From assembly GCA_028694915.1 (NCBI GenBank), contig JAQVJY010000001.1, positions 62,001-126,000 of the forward strand: 64,000 nucleotides of DNA. The letters are read 5' to 3'. The position numbers and the translations under genes are program-made. Under the pieces are notes generated by a model, which had not been told where the DNA came from, did not search any database, and saw only the letters and a program-made list of their open reading frames with translations. The DNA is from Paludibacteraceae bacterium. Lineage in GTDB: Bacteria; Bacteroidota; Bacteroidia; Bacteroidales; Paludibacteraceae. Within the stretch, counting starts at the first letter, position 1. Each line of letters opens with the position of its first letter. This document shows positions 8,934 through 15,921 of this stretch, piece after piece.

Positions 8934-9304
8934 TATCTTCTGTTTTTCTTATAGTTGAATTGATTTGAAAAATCTATGCAAAATAACACTATTTTTTTGA
9001 CTTATCAAAATTATACTCCATTTCTTTCTTGCTTTTAGATTTGCTAGTGAAAATTTGAATATTAATCACATGTTCCTGGTTATTTGGTACGCTATTTGCT
9101 AATATCGAAATCTTTTTTTACGTGTTTTATAACAGTTTTTTATAACTCGTAGGAAACTTAAATACTTTTTTAGTTTCCTATATATATCTATAAATCAATT
9201 TGTTATTAAATATATTTAAAAAATTATTTATTTTTAACATAAATAATAGATATTGTTTTGAGTGTAATATCTATCTTTGCATCGAACTTAAAACAAGATG
9301 GTAC
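8934..9304. other. AT-rich divergent intergenic region with repeats (bactofilin / TetR operon)
   Basis: This 371-base gap holds no gene. It contains a direct repeat TTTTATAAC (9125-9133 and 9138-9146), an inverted repeat TAGGAAACT...AGTTTCCTA (9150-9158 and 9172-9180), and the TetR promoter with a second inverted repeat described separately. An open frame from 9200 runs into TetR, but it begins upstream of the promoter and is probably not translated. Confidence 0.6.
9246..9279 (+). promoter_or_regulatory. TetR/RND operon promoter with overlapping candidate operator
   Basis: TATCTTTG at 9272-9279 is a perfect -7 element and TTG at 9253-9255 a possible -33. A perfect inverted repeat, ATAGATATT (9246-9254) and AATATCTAT (9266-9274) with 11 bases between, covers both elements. 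A TetR-family repressor bound here would block polymerase, which suggests autorepression of the efflux operon. Confidence 0.6.
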
Positions 9305-9910
9305 GTGGATGTAAAGGAAAAAATATTAAAATCAGCTTCAGATCTTTTTTTGAAATATGGTCTACGCAGTGTAAGTATTGATGATATTTGTAATGAGTTA
9401 CATATATCAAAAAAAACCTTTTATGCACACTTTAAGCAGAAAGAAGAGTTGGTAGAAAGTTTGTTGGCTCAAATGCGCTGTAAACATGATTCTGCCACTC
9501 AGCCATCGTTTAACGATGAAAATGTGATTGATATGTTGCTTAACAATACGAGTCGATTTAAGTCCAGTGGTATGGCCGAAAAACACATCAACTTTTTTTA
9601 CGATTTACAAAAATATTATCCCGAAATCAGTGTGCAGCACGATTTGGCCATGAATAAACAAAAAGTAGAACAGACAAAAATGGTTTTACATAAAGGGATT
9701 GAGCAAGGGTTGTTTCGTGCAGATATGAATGTGGATGCCATGGCATTATTTGGACACATTAAATTCACCCAAGTATTTCAGGAGTTGCGTGAAAAAGCAG
9801 ACTTGACAATTTCTCAAACTGTCGATTTTATATTGGAAGCGTTTTTCCGATTAGTAACCACCGAAAAGGGATTAGAGTATTATTTGTCGAATAAGAAACA
9901 AAATAAATAA
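9305..9910 (+). CDS. TetR/AcrR family transcriptional regulator
   Basis: A 201-residue repressor-type regulator. The N-terminal helix-turn-helix begins EKILKSASDLFLKYG and continues SIDDICNELHISKKTFYAHF, a textbook TetR DNA-binding domain (about residues 5-50). The remaining 150 residues are the helical ligand-binding/dimer domain. The reading frame is open from 9200, but the promoter lies at 9253-9279, so the GTG at 9305 is the better start and leaves almost no extra N-terminus. It is the first gene of the TolC-MFP-RND operon, 28 bases before the TolC-like gene, and probably senses a toxic compound or membrane lipid. Confidence 0.9.
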   Translation: MDVKEKILKSASDLFLKYGLRSVSIDDICNELHISKKTFYAHFKQKEELVESLLAQMRCKHDSATQPSFNDENVIDMLLNNTSRFKSSGMAEKHINFFYDLQKYYPEISVQHDLAMNKQKVEQTKMVLHKGIEQGLFRADMNVDAMALFGHIKFTQVFQELREKADLTISQTVDFILEAFFRLVTTEKGLEYYLSNKKQNK

Positions 9911-9938: not shown

Positions 9939-11225
9939 ATGCAAAAGAAAATTTTAATTTTAATGGTTACGGTGTTGAGCTCTTTCTCTTTAGTGGCTCA
10001 AGATTCGTTGCATTTGTCACTGTCGCTTAAAGAGGCAGAGACTTATGCGTTAGAGCACAATCGTACGATGCAAAACGCATCGTTGGATGTGAAAAAAGCG
10101 TATGCTGCTCGTTGGCAAACTATAGCTTCTATGTTGCCTCAAGTGAGTGCTTCGCTCGATTATTCCAATATGTGTGGTTATGAAATGACCATCATGGGAG
10201 GGAGAATTGCTATGCCTCCATCTGGAACGTTTGCCGTTACGGCATCGGTTGCTTTGAGTGGTTCGCAAGTGGTAGCTACTTTATTGAATAATATTGCTAT
10301 CGAAATGTCTGATATTTCGGTGAAGAAAACAGAGCAAACTATAACCTCTAACGTGGCAAACTTATATATGTCTATTTTGGCGATGGAAAAAACGGCTGGT
10401 TTACTTGACCAGAATTTAAAGAACTTGGAAAAATTGTATCAAAGTACGTCGAATGCTGTTAAAGTTGGTGTTTCGGAACAAACCGATGCCGATCAGATTT
10501 CGGTGCAAGTATCGTCTATGCAAAGTAGAATTAATGCCACCAAACGTTCGTTAGAAATGTTATACAACTCATTGGCGTTACAACTTGGTCAAGGCGTTGA
10601 TTATCAAATCACGTTAACGCAGAATTTGACTGATGTAATGAATGCTGATGCGGCTATGGAATTACTCTATACAGATTTCAATCTGGATCAGAATTATGAT
10701 TATCAATTACTCAAAAAGAATACAGAGCTTTCTAAAAAACAGATTACGTTGGCAGCTATGGATTATGTGCCTACGGTAAGTGCTTTCTATCAATATTCTG
10801 CCAAGGAATATTTTAGCGATGAACCCACTATGAATATGACAGCTCCTAATGTGGTTGGTGTGTCGTTGAAAGTGCCAATTTGGTCGAGTGGTAGACGTGC
10901 GGCCTCGGTGTCTGAGAAAAAAATTGCTTACCAAACGGCTCAAAATACATTGACCGACACTGAAAATGCGCTTCGCGTGCAAGATAAGCAACTACGTTAT
11001 AATTTAAGTTCTGCTTATGAAAATTATCAAACACAGACCAAAAATTTAGATGTTTCGCAACGTGTATTTGATAATATTTCAAAAAAATACGAACAAGGTT
11101 ATGCTTCAAGTACAGATGTTACCAATTCTAGTATGTCGCTTTTGACCGCTCAGAGTAATTATATTTCAGCTATTCTCGAAATGGTAAATGCACATATCGA
11201 TTTGAAAAAACTTTTGAATAAATAA
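9939..11225 (+). CDS. TolC-family outer-membrane efflux protein
   Basis: A 428-residue outer-membrane channel subunit. A cleavable signal peptide (KKILILMVTVLSSFSLVAQ) is followed by two OEP repeats with long amphipathic helices. Landmarks are LSLKEAETYALEHN near residue 27, SVSLKVPIWSSGRR-like LKVPIWSSGRR near 310, and KKYEQGYASSTDVTNS near the end. Three subunits would form the beta-barrel and periplasmic tunnel docking to the adaptor and pump encoded next. The gap to the adaptor gene is 19 bases. Confidence 0.9.
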   Translation: MQKKILILMVTVLSSFSLVAQDSLHLSLSLKEAETYALEHNRTMQNASLDVKKAYAARWQTIASMLPQVSASLDYSNMCGYEMTIMGGRIAMPPSGTFAVTASVALSGSQVVATLLNNIAIEMSDISVKKTEQTITSNVANLYMSILAMEKTAGLLDQNLKNLEKLYQSTSNAVKVGVSEQTDADQISVQVSSMQSRINATKRSLEMLYNSLALQLGQGVDYQITLTQNLTDVMNADAAMELLYTDFNLDQNYDYQLLKKNTELSKKQITLAAMDYVPTVSAFYQYSAKEYFSDEPTMNMTAPNVVGVSLKVPIWSSGRRAASVSEKKIAYQTAQNTLTDTENALRVQDKQLRYNLSSAYENYQTQTKNLDVSQRVFDNISKKYEQGYASSTDVTNSSMSLLTAQSNYISAILEMVNAHIDLKKLLNK

Positions 11226-11244: not shown

Positions 11245-12288
11245 ATGAATAAAACGATGAAAACAATTAAGAACATGATGTTCATTGCCTTAGTAATACT
11301 TTTTGCTAGTTGTGGTAAAACAGAAAAGGCTTCAGAATCAACCGATACAAATCAAGATAGTCGAGTTGAACAAGTGCAAACCTCACCTTTATCAAAAACT
11401 ACTATCGCACGTGAAATAGAGTTGTCTACAACACTTCAAGGCTATGAAACTGTAAATGTAGCTCCTTCTTTAAATGGTAAAATAGAACATATTTTTGTGG
11501 AAGTTGGTGCTGCTGTATCAAAAGGACAGTTATTAGTTCGTATGGATCAAAACCAATATAACACAACTAAATTAACTTATGCTAATTTGGGTGTCGAGTT
11601 GGCTCGTATGGAGGCTTTAAAAGAGAGTGGAACTATTTCTCAACAAACGTATGATCGAACAAAATTGAGCTACGACCAAACTAAAGAAAATTTGGAATTC
11701 TTAGAAAAGAATACCTATGTGAAAGCTCCTTTTTCTGGTGTTATTTCAGCCAAGAATTATGAAGATGGCGAATTGTATGCAGGTCAACCAGTGTTAGTGT
11801 TAACTCAAATCAACACTCTCAAAGCATTAATTAATGTACCAGAATCTAATTTCCCATTGATTAAGAAAGGCCAAAAAGTTAATTTGCATTCAGAAATTTA
11901 TCCTGACAAAGCCTTTCCTGCAACTATTGAGGTCGTTTATCCTACTATTGATGCAACAACCCATACGTTTCAGGTAAAATTAAATATACCAAATTCGTCG
12001 TTAGCGCTTCGTCCAGGTATGTTTGTGCGTACAACTTTGGCTTTAGGTAAAGTGGATGCCATTATGGCTCCTTATCAAGCAGTTTTAAAATTAGTGGGAT
12101 CTAACGAACGTTATGTGTTTGTAAATAAAGGTGGAGTAGCTAAGCGTGTGAGTGTAAACTTGGGTCAACGTTTTGATGATATGGTGGAATTAGTTTCCAC
12201 AGAATTGGTCGAAGGTGACGAGTTGGTAACACTTGGTCAAGCCAAATTGGTGGATGGTTCTAAATTAAATGTGGTAAAGAAGAACTAG
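11245..12288 (+). CDS. RND efflux periplasmic adaptor lipoprotein (membrane fusion protein)
   Basis: A 347-residue adaptor linking pump and TolC channel. It is a lipoprotein: the hydrophobic signal ends at lipobox LFASC with the cysteine at about residue 23 (or 19 if translation starts at the second ATG, 11257). Next come the lipoyl half-motif (NVAPSLNGKIEHIFVEVGAAVSKGQ), a short helical hairpin, the second lipoyl half (YVKAPFSGVISAKNYEDGE) and beta-barrel and membrane-proximal domains. The helical hairpin is short compared with AcrA. It lies between the outer-membrane and inner-membrane pump genes. Confidence 0.92.
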   Translation: MNKTMKTIKNMMFIALVILFASCGKTEKASESTDTNQDSRVEQVQTSPLSKTTIAREIELSTTLQGYETVNVAPSLNGKIEHIFVEVGAAVSKGQLLVRMDQNQYNTTKLTYANLGVELARMEALKESGTISQQTYDRTKLSYDQTKENLEFLEKNTYVKAPFSGVISAKNYEDGELYAGQPVLVLTQINTLKALINVPESNFPLIKKGQKVNLHSEIYPDKAFPATIEVVYPTIDATTHTFQVKLNIPNSSLALRPGMFVRTTLALGKVDAIMAPYQAVLKLVGSNERYVFVNKGGVAKRVSVNLGQRFDDMVELVSTELVEGDELVTLGQAKLVDGSKLNVVKKN

Positions 12289-12342: not shown

Positions 12343-15300
12343 ATGAGTATTTATAAATCAGCTATTAATAAACCGGTTACGACTATTTTGATTTTCGTGG
12401 CGGTGATAATCATAGGCCTGTTTTCATTCTTGAAACTACCTATTGATCAATTTCCTGAAATGGAACCACCGTATATTACGGTAATGACTACATATCCTGG
12501 TGCTAGTGCCAGCGAAGTGGAAACAAATGTGACTAAGTTGCTCGAAAACAGTTTGAACTCTGTGGATGGGCTTAAGGAACTTACTTCAACTTCCAAAGAT
12601 AACATGTCTATGGTGATGCTTGAAATGGAGTGGGGTACCAACTTAGATGAAGTTATCAATGACGTGCGTTCATACATTGATATGACCAAAGATAACTTAC
12701 CTAGTGGATGTTCTAATCCTTTCATATTCAAGTTTAGTTCTAGTGCTATGCCAATTCTTCAGTACGCTATTACCGCTAACGAAAGTTATCCCGGTTTGGA
12801 TAAGTTGCTGAATGATGATGTAATGCCTCAGTTGAACCGAGTTGATGGTATTGGTAACTTATCATTGTCTGGATCGCCAGAACGTTATATATATGTGGAT
12901 ATTAATCAAGAAAAACTAGATGCTTACCATATTTCTCTTGAGGCTGTTGGGCAAGCTGTAAGCAACAATAATTTGAACTTATCGTCGGGTACTGTGAAGA
13001 TGGAAAAAGAACAGTATCAATTACAAGTGCGTAGCGAGTATGTTCAAAGTTCCGAAATCAATGACATTGTGGTGACCACCACGCCTGATGGTAAACAAGT
13101 GTATGTGCGTGATATTGCTGTTGTGCGTGATACGATTAAAGACTTAAGTCTTGATGAAAAAACCAATGGACGTGAAAGTGTACGTTTGATTGTGACCAAA
13201 CAATCCGGTGCTAATACGGTTCAAATATGTAAGGACGTACAAGCCGAAATGGCTAAGATTCAGAAACGACTACCTTCCGACGTTAAGATTGACGTAATTT
13301 ATGATTCTTCTGATTACATTAAAAATGCCGTTTATAGCTTGGAAGAATCAATTATGTATGCGCTTATCTTTGTTGTATTAGTTGTGCTATTCTTCTTGGG
13401 AAAATGGCGAGCGACATTGATTATTGGGTTAACTATACCAATTTCTTTAGTGGTGTCATTTATCTATCTGCTTTTTGTCGACAGTTCGTTAAATATCATT
13501 TCACTATCGTCGCTTACTGTTGCTATTGGTATGGTGGTGGATGATGCCATTGTGGTGCTCGAAAATATATCAAAACATATTGATCGAGGTTCCAATCCGC
13601 GAGAAGCATCCATTTATGCTACCAATGAGGTATGGACTTCAGTAATCGCTACTACATTGGTTATTGTAGCTGTATTTGTGCCTCTAACCATGCTTAATGG
13701 TATGGCTGGTATTATGTTCAAAGAGTTGGGGTGGATTGTGACTATTGTTGTATGTACTTCAACACTGGTAGCTATTACTTTGACTCCTATGTTGAGTTCA
13801 AAATTATTGAAACCACACAAAGTCCATATCGACGAAAATGGACAGATTGTGGAAGAACAACCTAAAATAGATTGGTATCAAAAATATGTGGTTGGTTTAT
13901 TGGACAAAGTAGACGCTTGGTATGCTAAGGTTCTACATGTTTGTTTGAATCATAAAGCGGTTACTTTGATTGTTGTTGTGGCTATCTTTTTGGCTTCGTT
14001 AATCCCTGCATTTATGGGATTTATCGGTACCGACTTTATGCAACAAGGCGATAATGGACGTTTAAGTGTACAGGTAGAGTTACAACGTGGTACGCGTATC
14101 GAAGAAACATTGAAAACGGCACGTCTGCTTGAAACACGTTTCCAAGTTTTAGCTCCTGAAATTAGAATGATTAATACATCTGCGGGTTCTAATGATGACG
14201 CTAATGTTTCAGCCATTTTTTCATCAACTACCAACAATAAAATTTCGATGACCGTTGTTTGTAATAAAAAATATGAACGCGAACGTTCTATTGATGAAAT
14301 CGCCGAAGTGTTACGTAAAGAATTGGATAATTATCCTGAAATTATTGACTATCAATGTACGGTTGGTGGTGGTATGCGTGGTATGGTGGGAGGATCGTCT
14401 ACGGTTGATGTCGAAATTTATGGCTACGACTTCGCTAAGACATCTTTATTGGCTGAGAAGATTAAACGTATGGTGAGTGATAGTATTCCTGGTGCTCGTG
14501 ATATCAATGTTGATAGAGATGATGATCGTGCAGAGCTTAAGATTGTTGTGGATAAGGAAAAAATTGCTCGTCAAAATTTAAATTCAGTGGCTATTTCTAG
14601 TTATGTACGTAATCGCGTAAATGGGATGGCAGTAGGCTATTTGAAAGAAGATGGTGATGAATATAATATAGTTGTACGTTTACAGGAAGAAAATCGGAAT
14701 ACTTTAACAGATATTCAGGATTTAACAATTCCTACACCAATGGGCAAACAGTTAAAATTAAGTGAAGTGGCTAATATTGAAGAATATTGGACACCTCCAA
14801 CCATTGCTCGTAAAAATCGTCAACGTATTGTTCGTGTGCAAATTACACCATATAAAACATCGTTAGGAGAATTGGCTACAGATGTTCAGGCCGTTATGGA
14901 ACATATCGAGATTCCACAAGGTGTCTCGGTTCGCTTGGCTGGTGATTATGAAGAACAACAGGAAACGTTTGGTGATTTATTGTTACTTCTAGCATTAATT
15001 GTCCTATTAGTCTATATTGTAATGGCCTCACAATTTGAATCCTTTGCTAAGCCTTCTATTATTATGATGTCTGTGCCTTTTGCTATTACTGGTGTTATTT
15101 TATCTCTTTGGATTACAGGAACATCTCTTGATATGATTGGTGCTTTGGGTGTTATCATGTTGGTGGGTATTGTAGTGAAGAACGGTATTGTGTTGGTGGA
15201 TTACACTAACTTGATGCGTGACCGTGGTTACGAACTGAATGAGGCCATTGCTATGTCTGGTGCTTCACGTTTACGTCCTGTATTGATGACCGCTTTTACT

Positions 15301-15534
15301 ACGATTCTTGGTATGTTACCTATGGCGTTGAGTAATAGTGAAGGATCTGAAATGTGGAAACCTATGGGTATTGTAGTAATTGGTGGCTTGTTGGTGTCTA
15401 CTCTAGTAACGCTTATTGTAGTTCCTATTCTATATGCAGTCATGTCTCGTCATGGCGAACGTGATAAAGAGAAAAAGAATCGTGAAACATTTATTTTTAT
15501 GCAATTATCGGATAAAGATAAAGACGCTAAATAA
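12343..15534 (+). CDS. RND-family efflux transporter, inner-membrane pump (AcrB/HAE1-like)
   Basis: A 1063-residue proton-driven pump. The standard RND order is visible: TM1 (residues 10-30), a large periplasmic domain beginning PEMEPPYITVMTTYPGASASEVE, TM2-6 with the proton-relay aspartates in VAIGMVVDDAIVVLEN (about 400-415), a second periplasmic loop, and TM8-12 with GIVVKNGIVLVDY. The paired aspartates in TM4 and the lysine in TM10 match hydrophobe/amphiphile pumps, not heavy-metal CzcA types. The TetR regulator suggests drug, detergent or fatty-acid export. The C-terminal tail is short and charged. Confidence 0.95.
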   Translation: MSIYKSAINKPVTTILIFVAVIIIGLFSFLKLPIDQFPEMEPPYITVMTTYPGASASEVETNVTKLLENSLNSVDGLKELTSTSKDNMSMVMLEMEWGTNLDEVINDVRSYIDMTKDNLPSGCSNPFIFKFSSSAMPILQYAITANESYPGLDKLLNDDVMPQLNRVDGIGNLSLSGSPERYIYVDINQEKLDAYHISLEAVGQAVSNNNLNLSSGTVKMEKEQYQLQVRSEYVQSSEINDIVVTTTPDGKQVYVRDIAVVRDTIKDLSLDEKTNGRESVRLIVTKQSGANTVQICKDVQAEMAKIQKRLPSDVKIDVIYDSSDYIKNAVYSLEESIMYALIFVVLVVLFFLGKWRATLIIGLTIPISLVVSFIYLLFVDSSLNIISLSSLTVAIGMVVDDAIVVLENISKHIDRGSNPREASIYATNEVWTSVIATTLVIVAVFVPLTMLNGMAGIMFKELGWIVTIVVCTSTLVAITLTPMLSSKLLKPHKVHIDENGQIVEEQPKIDWYQKYVVGLLDKVDAWYAKVLHVCLNHKAVTLIVVVAIFLASLIPAFMGFIGTDFMQQGDNGRLSVQVELQRGTRIEETLKTARLLETRFQVLAPEIRMINTSAGSNDDANVSAIFSSTTNNKISMTVVCNKKYERERSIDEIAEVLRKELDNYPEIIDYQCTVGGGMRGMVGGSSTVDVEIYGYDFAKTSLLAEKIKRMVSDSIPGARDINVDRDDDRAELKIVVDKEKIARQNLNSVAISSYVRNRVNGMAVGYLKEDGDEYNIVVRLQEENRNTLTDIQDLTIPTPMGKQLKLSEVANIEEYWTPPTIARKNRQRIVRVQITPYKTSLGELATDVQAVMEHIEIPQGVSVRLAGDYEEQQETFGDLLLLLALIVLLVYIVMASQFESFAKPSIIMMSVPFAITGVILSLWITGTSLDMIGALGVIMLVGIVVKNGIVLVDYTNLMRDRGYELNEAIAMSGASRLRPVLMTAFTTILGMLPMALSNSEGSEMWKPMGIVVIGGLLVSTLVTLIVVPILYAVMSRHGERDKEKKNRETFIFMQLSDKDKDAK

Positions 15535-15561: not shown

Positions 15562-15855
15562 ATGAAATCAGTATTTATTGTATTTAATCAAGCGAATACC
15601 GAACGTGTCGAATATATGTTAGATCAATTGAAAATCAGTGGTTTTACATTTTTCGAACAAGTTCAGGGGCGTGGTACCAATGGTGGAGAGCCACGTCGTG
15701 GTTCGCACACTTGGCCTGAAATGAATTCAGCGGTGATGACCGTTGTGGAGGATGACCAAGTAGCTGTTCTGTTGAGTACCGTTAAAAAGTTGGACAACCG
15801 AAATAAAGAAATTGGTGTTCGTGCTTTTGTTTGGAATATAGAAGCTACCGTATAA
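15562..15855 (+). CDS. Small PII-like protein at the end of the RND operon
   Basis: A 97-residue protein with the size and beta-alpha-beta pattern of the PII/CutA ferredoxin-like fold: strand KSVFIVFN (residues 2-9), helix NTERVEYMLDQLKIS, strand GFTFFEQVQGRG, and a later strand QVAVLLSTVKKLD. GRGTNGGEPRRGSH (about 36-49) lies where PII proteins have their flexible T-loop. It is 27 bases after the pump gene, followed by a terminator, so it is the fifth gene of the efflux operon. A regulator of pump activity or a sensor is plausible, but no function is shown. It lacks the PII uridylylation tyrosine motif. Confidence 0.6.
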   Translation: MKSVFIVFNQANTERVEYMLDQLKISGFTFFEQVQGRGTNGGEPRRGSHTWPEMNSAVMTVVEDDQVAVLLSTVKKLDNRNKEIGVRAFVWNIEATV

Positions 15856-15885: not shown

Positions 15886-15921
15886 AAGGCTTTCGCTCAT
15901 GAGTGGCGAAAGCCTTTTTTA
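15886..15921 (+). terminator. Rho-independent terminator of the efflux operon
   Basis: AAGGCTTTCGC and GCGAAAGCCTT enclose a nine-base loop and are followed by T's. It ends the TetR-TolC-MFP-RND-PII-like transcript. Confidence 0.9.

Follow-up and report, generated by a model that had tools for sequence, protein, structure and literature searches.

A conserved, helically phased inverted repeat far upstream of a TetR-headed RND efflux operon in Bacteroidales is the probable TetR operator

Introduction

Most TetR-family regulators linked to efflux pumps are repressors, and operators of the AcrR/MtrR/QacR type overlap the promoter or the start site. In Bacteroides fragilis, BmeR5 is the TetR repressor of the RND pump bmeABC5, and it has been reported to bind the bmeR5–bmeC5 intergenic region and to repress there (PMC4790292). 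TetR-family proteins are also able to activate some promoters, as described for LuxR of Vibrio harveyi (PMC2628434) and for SlmA at Pchb of Vibrio cholerae (PMC5519180).

Here we analysed a window of 64,000 nucleotides from a Paludibacteraceae bacterium (contig JAQVJY010000001.1, positions 62,001 to 126,000). As with BmeR5/bmeABC5, a Bacteroidales TetR gene stands beside an RND pump, but the gap between TetR and TolC is 28 bp here, and the conserved site lies upstream of tetR. The regulator resembles AcrR/MtrR/QacR-type repressors in its TetR_N domain, its linked efflux operon and its long inverted repeat as candidate operator, which at 27–28 bp is similar in length to the QacR site; unlike theirs, this candidate operator lies far upstream and is helically phased. 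LuxR and SlmA may be mechanistic analogues for such upstream action, although they are not local pump-linked regulators like the TetR here. By comparison with related loci, we propose, with a probability of about 0.72, that the true TetR operator is the repeat GGAAACT-N13-AGTTTCC at 9152–9178 and that it would serve in distal, helix-phased control of the regulator's own operon.

Results

The five genes of the operon run in one direction with gaps of 19–54 bp (Table 1), and the regulator is encoded within the pump operon, as local TetR proteins of the AcrR/BmeR type are encoded within or adjacent to theirs. The gene identities in the original prediction, a TetR regulator heading a TolC/adaptor/RND operon, were right. 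The TetR_N match reaches 46.5 bits against a cut-off of 24, and sequence conservation was also seen in the C-terminal columns of TetR. The TATCTTTG box was located where it had been placed, with the in-frame GTG of TetR 26 bases on. The gene divergent from tetR encodes a bactofilin, and the spacer between the two is 371 bp long with 22% GC; a search of this spacer for RNA families gave nothing credible.

Table 1. Coordinates of the features of the tetR upstream region and of the efflux operon in the window
Feature	Position	Strand	Basis or remark
GGAAACT-N13-AGTTTCC, putative TetR operator	9152..9178 (palindromic arms to 9150-9180)		conservation
AATCAATTTGTTA, perfect match to E. coli IHF consensus WATCAANNNNTTR	9193..9205	+	same in sister species
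TTTTTAACA, conserved AT-rich element	9231..9239	+	upstream of -7 box, within repeat 9223-9247
First-noted inverted repeat	9246..9274		present, unconserved, probably incidental
TATCTTTG, operon promoter -7 box (TAnnTTTG)	9272..9279	+	pattern, consensus as in PMC7366714
TetR-family regulator, GTG start	9305..9910	+	PF00440
TolC-type outer membrane efflux protein (OEP)	9939..11225	+	
RND periplasmic adaptor	11245..12288	+	
RND permease (ACR_tran)	12343..15534	+	
P-II-like PG0541-family transporter-associated protein	15562..15855	+	NF045581
Intrinsic terminator-like stem-loop, operon end	15886..15916	+	

The repeat at 9152–9178 is a candidate operator because of its conservation, its uniqueness and its association with TetR, all of which would be expected of an operator. 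With a spacer of 13 or 14 and no more than 2 mismatches in 14 positions, a GGAAACT-type repeat was found upstream of 107 of 109 assessable orthologues in the family, in a sample whose weakest matches (E > ~1e-23) were examined in part, and the proteins concerned include some at only 28–40% identity. Shuffled downstream spacers gave no match at that same mismatch limit in 790 trials. In its own genome, 9152–9178 is the sole perfect copy of GGAAACT-N13-AGTTTCC, and matches with 2 mismatches (8 versus 5 for a reversed-pattern control) are background within noise. Of 200 genomes in the family, 54 contain the perfect pattern, almost always as a single copy, where the control gave 2 matches; comparison of coordinates placed 49 of the 56 perfect copies directly upstream of the gene for this TetR.

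No TetR gene is near the remaining seven perfect copies, most of which are GC-extended stem-loops. They belong to genera g4, g20 and g28: six have the form GCGGAAACTG...CAGTTTCCGC or similar and were set aside as an unrelated kind of element, while the remaining copy (L217) is within apparent coding DNA. In L211–L216, the GCGGAAACTG-type stem-loops away from TetR genes (around position 1020–1075) look like dispersed repeats or terminators. As a separate observation, the 60 bp to the left of the repeat in loci of the distal class hold extra GGAAAC/GTTTCC half-sites, 15 versus 1.7 expected, for example in L025 and L057, and these sometimes form a direct repeat GGAAACTTGGAAACT.

The association extends beyond the family. 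An order-wide sample of 88 TetR homologues includes 67 with GGAAAC-N15/16-GTTTCC at no more than 2 mismatches in 12 positions, versus about 5 expected from shuffles, and six of the 21 homologues without the motif are the second genes of tandem TetR pairs. Such tandem pairs, in which the second gene is without an operator motif of its own, were seen in other Bacteroidales families (L125, L131, L154, L159, L178 and L181). In 171 motif-bearing proteins, the recognition-helix residues S35, K36, T38, Y40 and K46 are near-invariant. When the seventh operator base was compared with TetR residues, the top covarying columns were dispersed along the protein and tracked phylogeny. No link of GGAAAC to a Bacteroidetes TetR was found in the literature searched, which included few subscription papers.

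A general upstream activator site would suit the position of 9152–9178, and the repeat could thus be bound by another activator or repressor while TetR acts elsewhere. We regard this as unlikely: about one perfect copy exists per genome and it is nearly always beside the gene for this TetR, the motif tracks TetR homologues over many Bacteroidales families at varied promoter positions, the second genes of tandem pairs are without it, and the recognition helix is invariant. From these comparisons, binding of TetR within the region upstream of its own gene is very probable, and autoregulation is plausible.

With -7 boxes located by pattern (TAnnTTTG), the distance from the end of the repeat to the box is 93 bp in the window, and nearly all family loci fall at 29–32, 40, 50, 82–84, 92–96 or 103–105 bp. 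The site–promoter distance is thus conserved modulo one helical turn. Over 27 genus clusters, the best period is 10.55 bp with R = 0.60, and the phasing is significant by the Rayleigh test (p ~6e-5) and by free-period simulation (p = 0.0005), both p-values being approximate since genus clusters share ancestry. Exceptions, off or loosely on phase, are found at 88–89 bp (three genera) and 107–111 bp (two genera). Single genera cover several distance classes: 83, 92–96 and 103–105 bp in g2, and 29–30, 40 and 93–95 bp in g8.

In other Bacteroidales families, the repeat usually ends 13–19 or 2–6 bp before the -7 box, and in most of them the motif adjoins or overlaps the -33 region, which is where an occluding repressor would sit. 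In a maximum-likelihood TetR tree, a single branch with 100/100 support unites the displaced (at least 29 bp) regulators of the family with L122 and L123 from two further families; rows labelled as displaced outside this branch are L153 (27 bp) and L210, whose box at 174 bp is doubtful. Promoters of g8 at 29–40 bp nest among distal ones in this tree, and therefore the distance changed again later, by approximately whole turns.

In the window the repeat sits between divergent genes, so that one might take it for the operator of an adjacent second promoter, either a forward one with a long leader or a backward one for bactofilin, which TetR would occlude. Box counts at the 79 distal loci support such a promoter in neither direction: TAnnTTTG follows the repeat within 32 bp in only two, and minus-strand boxes, present in 17, are scattered. 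Moreover, the neighbouring gene is a different one in L003, and the spacing between the repeat and the forward -7 box is quantised, all of which makes this reading quite improbable.

Between the repeat and the promoter of the window, the element at 9193–9205 is a probable bend element. In the 60 bp that follow the repeat, the 79 distal loci hold 21 perfect matches to the IHF consensus versus 1.7 expected, the consensus being that of E. coli, from which the sequence specificity of Bacteroidetes HU/IHF proteins may differ; the genome encodes four proteins of the HU/IHF family. The same 60 bp hold 22 perfect TGATWWWCA versus 1.25 expected, and all 17 perfect forward-strand copies begin 10–11 or 20–22 bp after the repeat. 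IHF-like and TGATWWWCA sequences are two forms of a second, phased element; in the genome studied here, the TGATWWWCA form is degenerate and only the IHF-like form is perfect. Further downstream, a TTTTTAAC-like tract lies 33–50 bp ahead of the -7 box, and TTTTTAACA may be UP-like, judging from its position. The inverted repeat ATTATTTATTTTTAACATAAATAAT (9223–9247) coincides with the conserved TTTTTAAC element.

The -33 boxes of Bacteroidetes are in general weakly defined (PMC7366714), and missing -33 boxes in the distal class are accordingly weak evidence. In the original prediction, a TTG at 9253–9255 was covered by the operator as part of the promoter. Its distance from the -7 box is 16 bp, compared with 20 bp in those family members that carry a -33 TTG, and it is missing from the sister species (TetR 93% identical), which provides the one further genome of the genus; because of both, this TTG is probably not a -33 element.

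The operator itself had been placed on an inverted repeat over the -7 box, ATAGATATT-N11-AATATCTAT. This repeat is real: its arms at 9246–9254 and 9266–9274 are exact complements with 11 bases between them, and the 2.09 Mb genome has no second copy of the pattern. It is one of three perfect 9-bp-arm repeats in the spacer, together with 9150–9180 and 9223–9247. In a Markov model of this 371-bp, 22% GC sequence, at least one such repeat arises by chance with P = 0.17 (loops up to 20) or 0.105 (loops up to 11). Between 9223 and 9293, the sister species differs from the window by five substitutions only (9252–9254, 9258 and 9259), and those at 9252–9254 break both the left arm (ATAGATGCC) and the TTG. 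Among the 106 promoters of the family in which a -7 box was located, a perfect repeat with arms of at least 8 bp spans the box in the window only and in none of the 105 others. The search for the same repeat ahead of orthologous operons, proposed along with the prediction, thus turned against it, and orthologue comparison ruled out 9246–9274 as a conserved operator. That TetR represses by covering the -7 box from these genome-unique perfect arms, whose position would suit an occluding repressor, is highly improbable given three of the five substitutions in the sister species, the absence of the repeat from all other family promoters, its chance probability of 0.1–0.17 and the conservation found instead at 9152–9178; the repeat is probably incidental. 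A perfect palindrome across a promoter in AT-rich DNA is hence weak evidence until orthologues have been compared.

Discussion

With 9152–9178 as operator, TetR would bind about 107 bp upstream of the promoter, counted from the repeat centre to where the -7 box begins, and its helical face would be the one shared with related promoters. The DNA would bend at the IHF-like site between repeat and promoter, and across this bend TetR would probably contact either the promoter complex or a protein sitting on the second element. The operon so controlled would comprise TetR, TolC, adaptor, RND permease and the P-II-like protein. Comparison of loci supports the conservation and uniqueness of the repeat, its association with TetR, its helical phasing and a single TetR clade for the displacement; we infer binding of TetR to the repeat, bending of the DNA and the sign of control.

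The candidate operator does not overlap the promoter core as it would in a system of the AcrR/BmeR type. Because the conserved repeat stops 93 bp short of the -7 box, this clade is unlikely to work by promoter occlusion. A search near the promoter for another GGAAACT-type operator showed no excess over shuffles, so that classical two-site looping is unsupported.

As for the sign, repression is slightly likelier than activation, because of family precedent and the promoter-proximal operator of relatives. Activation is a serious alternative because the site is lone, phased and far upstream, an arrangement typical of activators. We tentatively suggest, at somewhat less than even odds, that one clade of Bacteroidales pump-linked TetR proteins shifted its operator from the promoter to a site far upstream, in phase with the helix and with a bend between, turning an occluding repressor into a regulator that makes contact at a distance and may well be an activator. 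A far-upstream, helix-registered candidate operator in one clade is unexpected for pump-linked TetR repressors, and GGAAACT-N13/14-AGTTTCC provides a candidate operator motif for a group of efflux regulators that is widespread in Bacteroidales. At the other end of the operon, the terminal P-II-like PG0541-family gene suggests a further layer of pump control.
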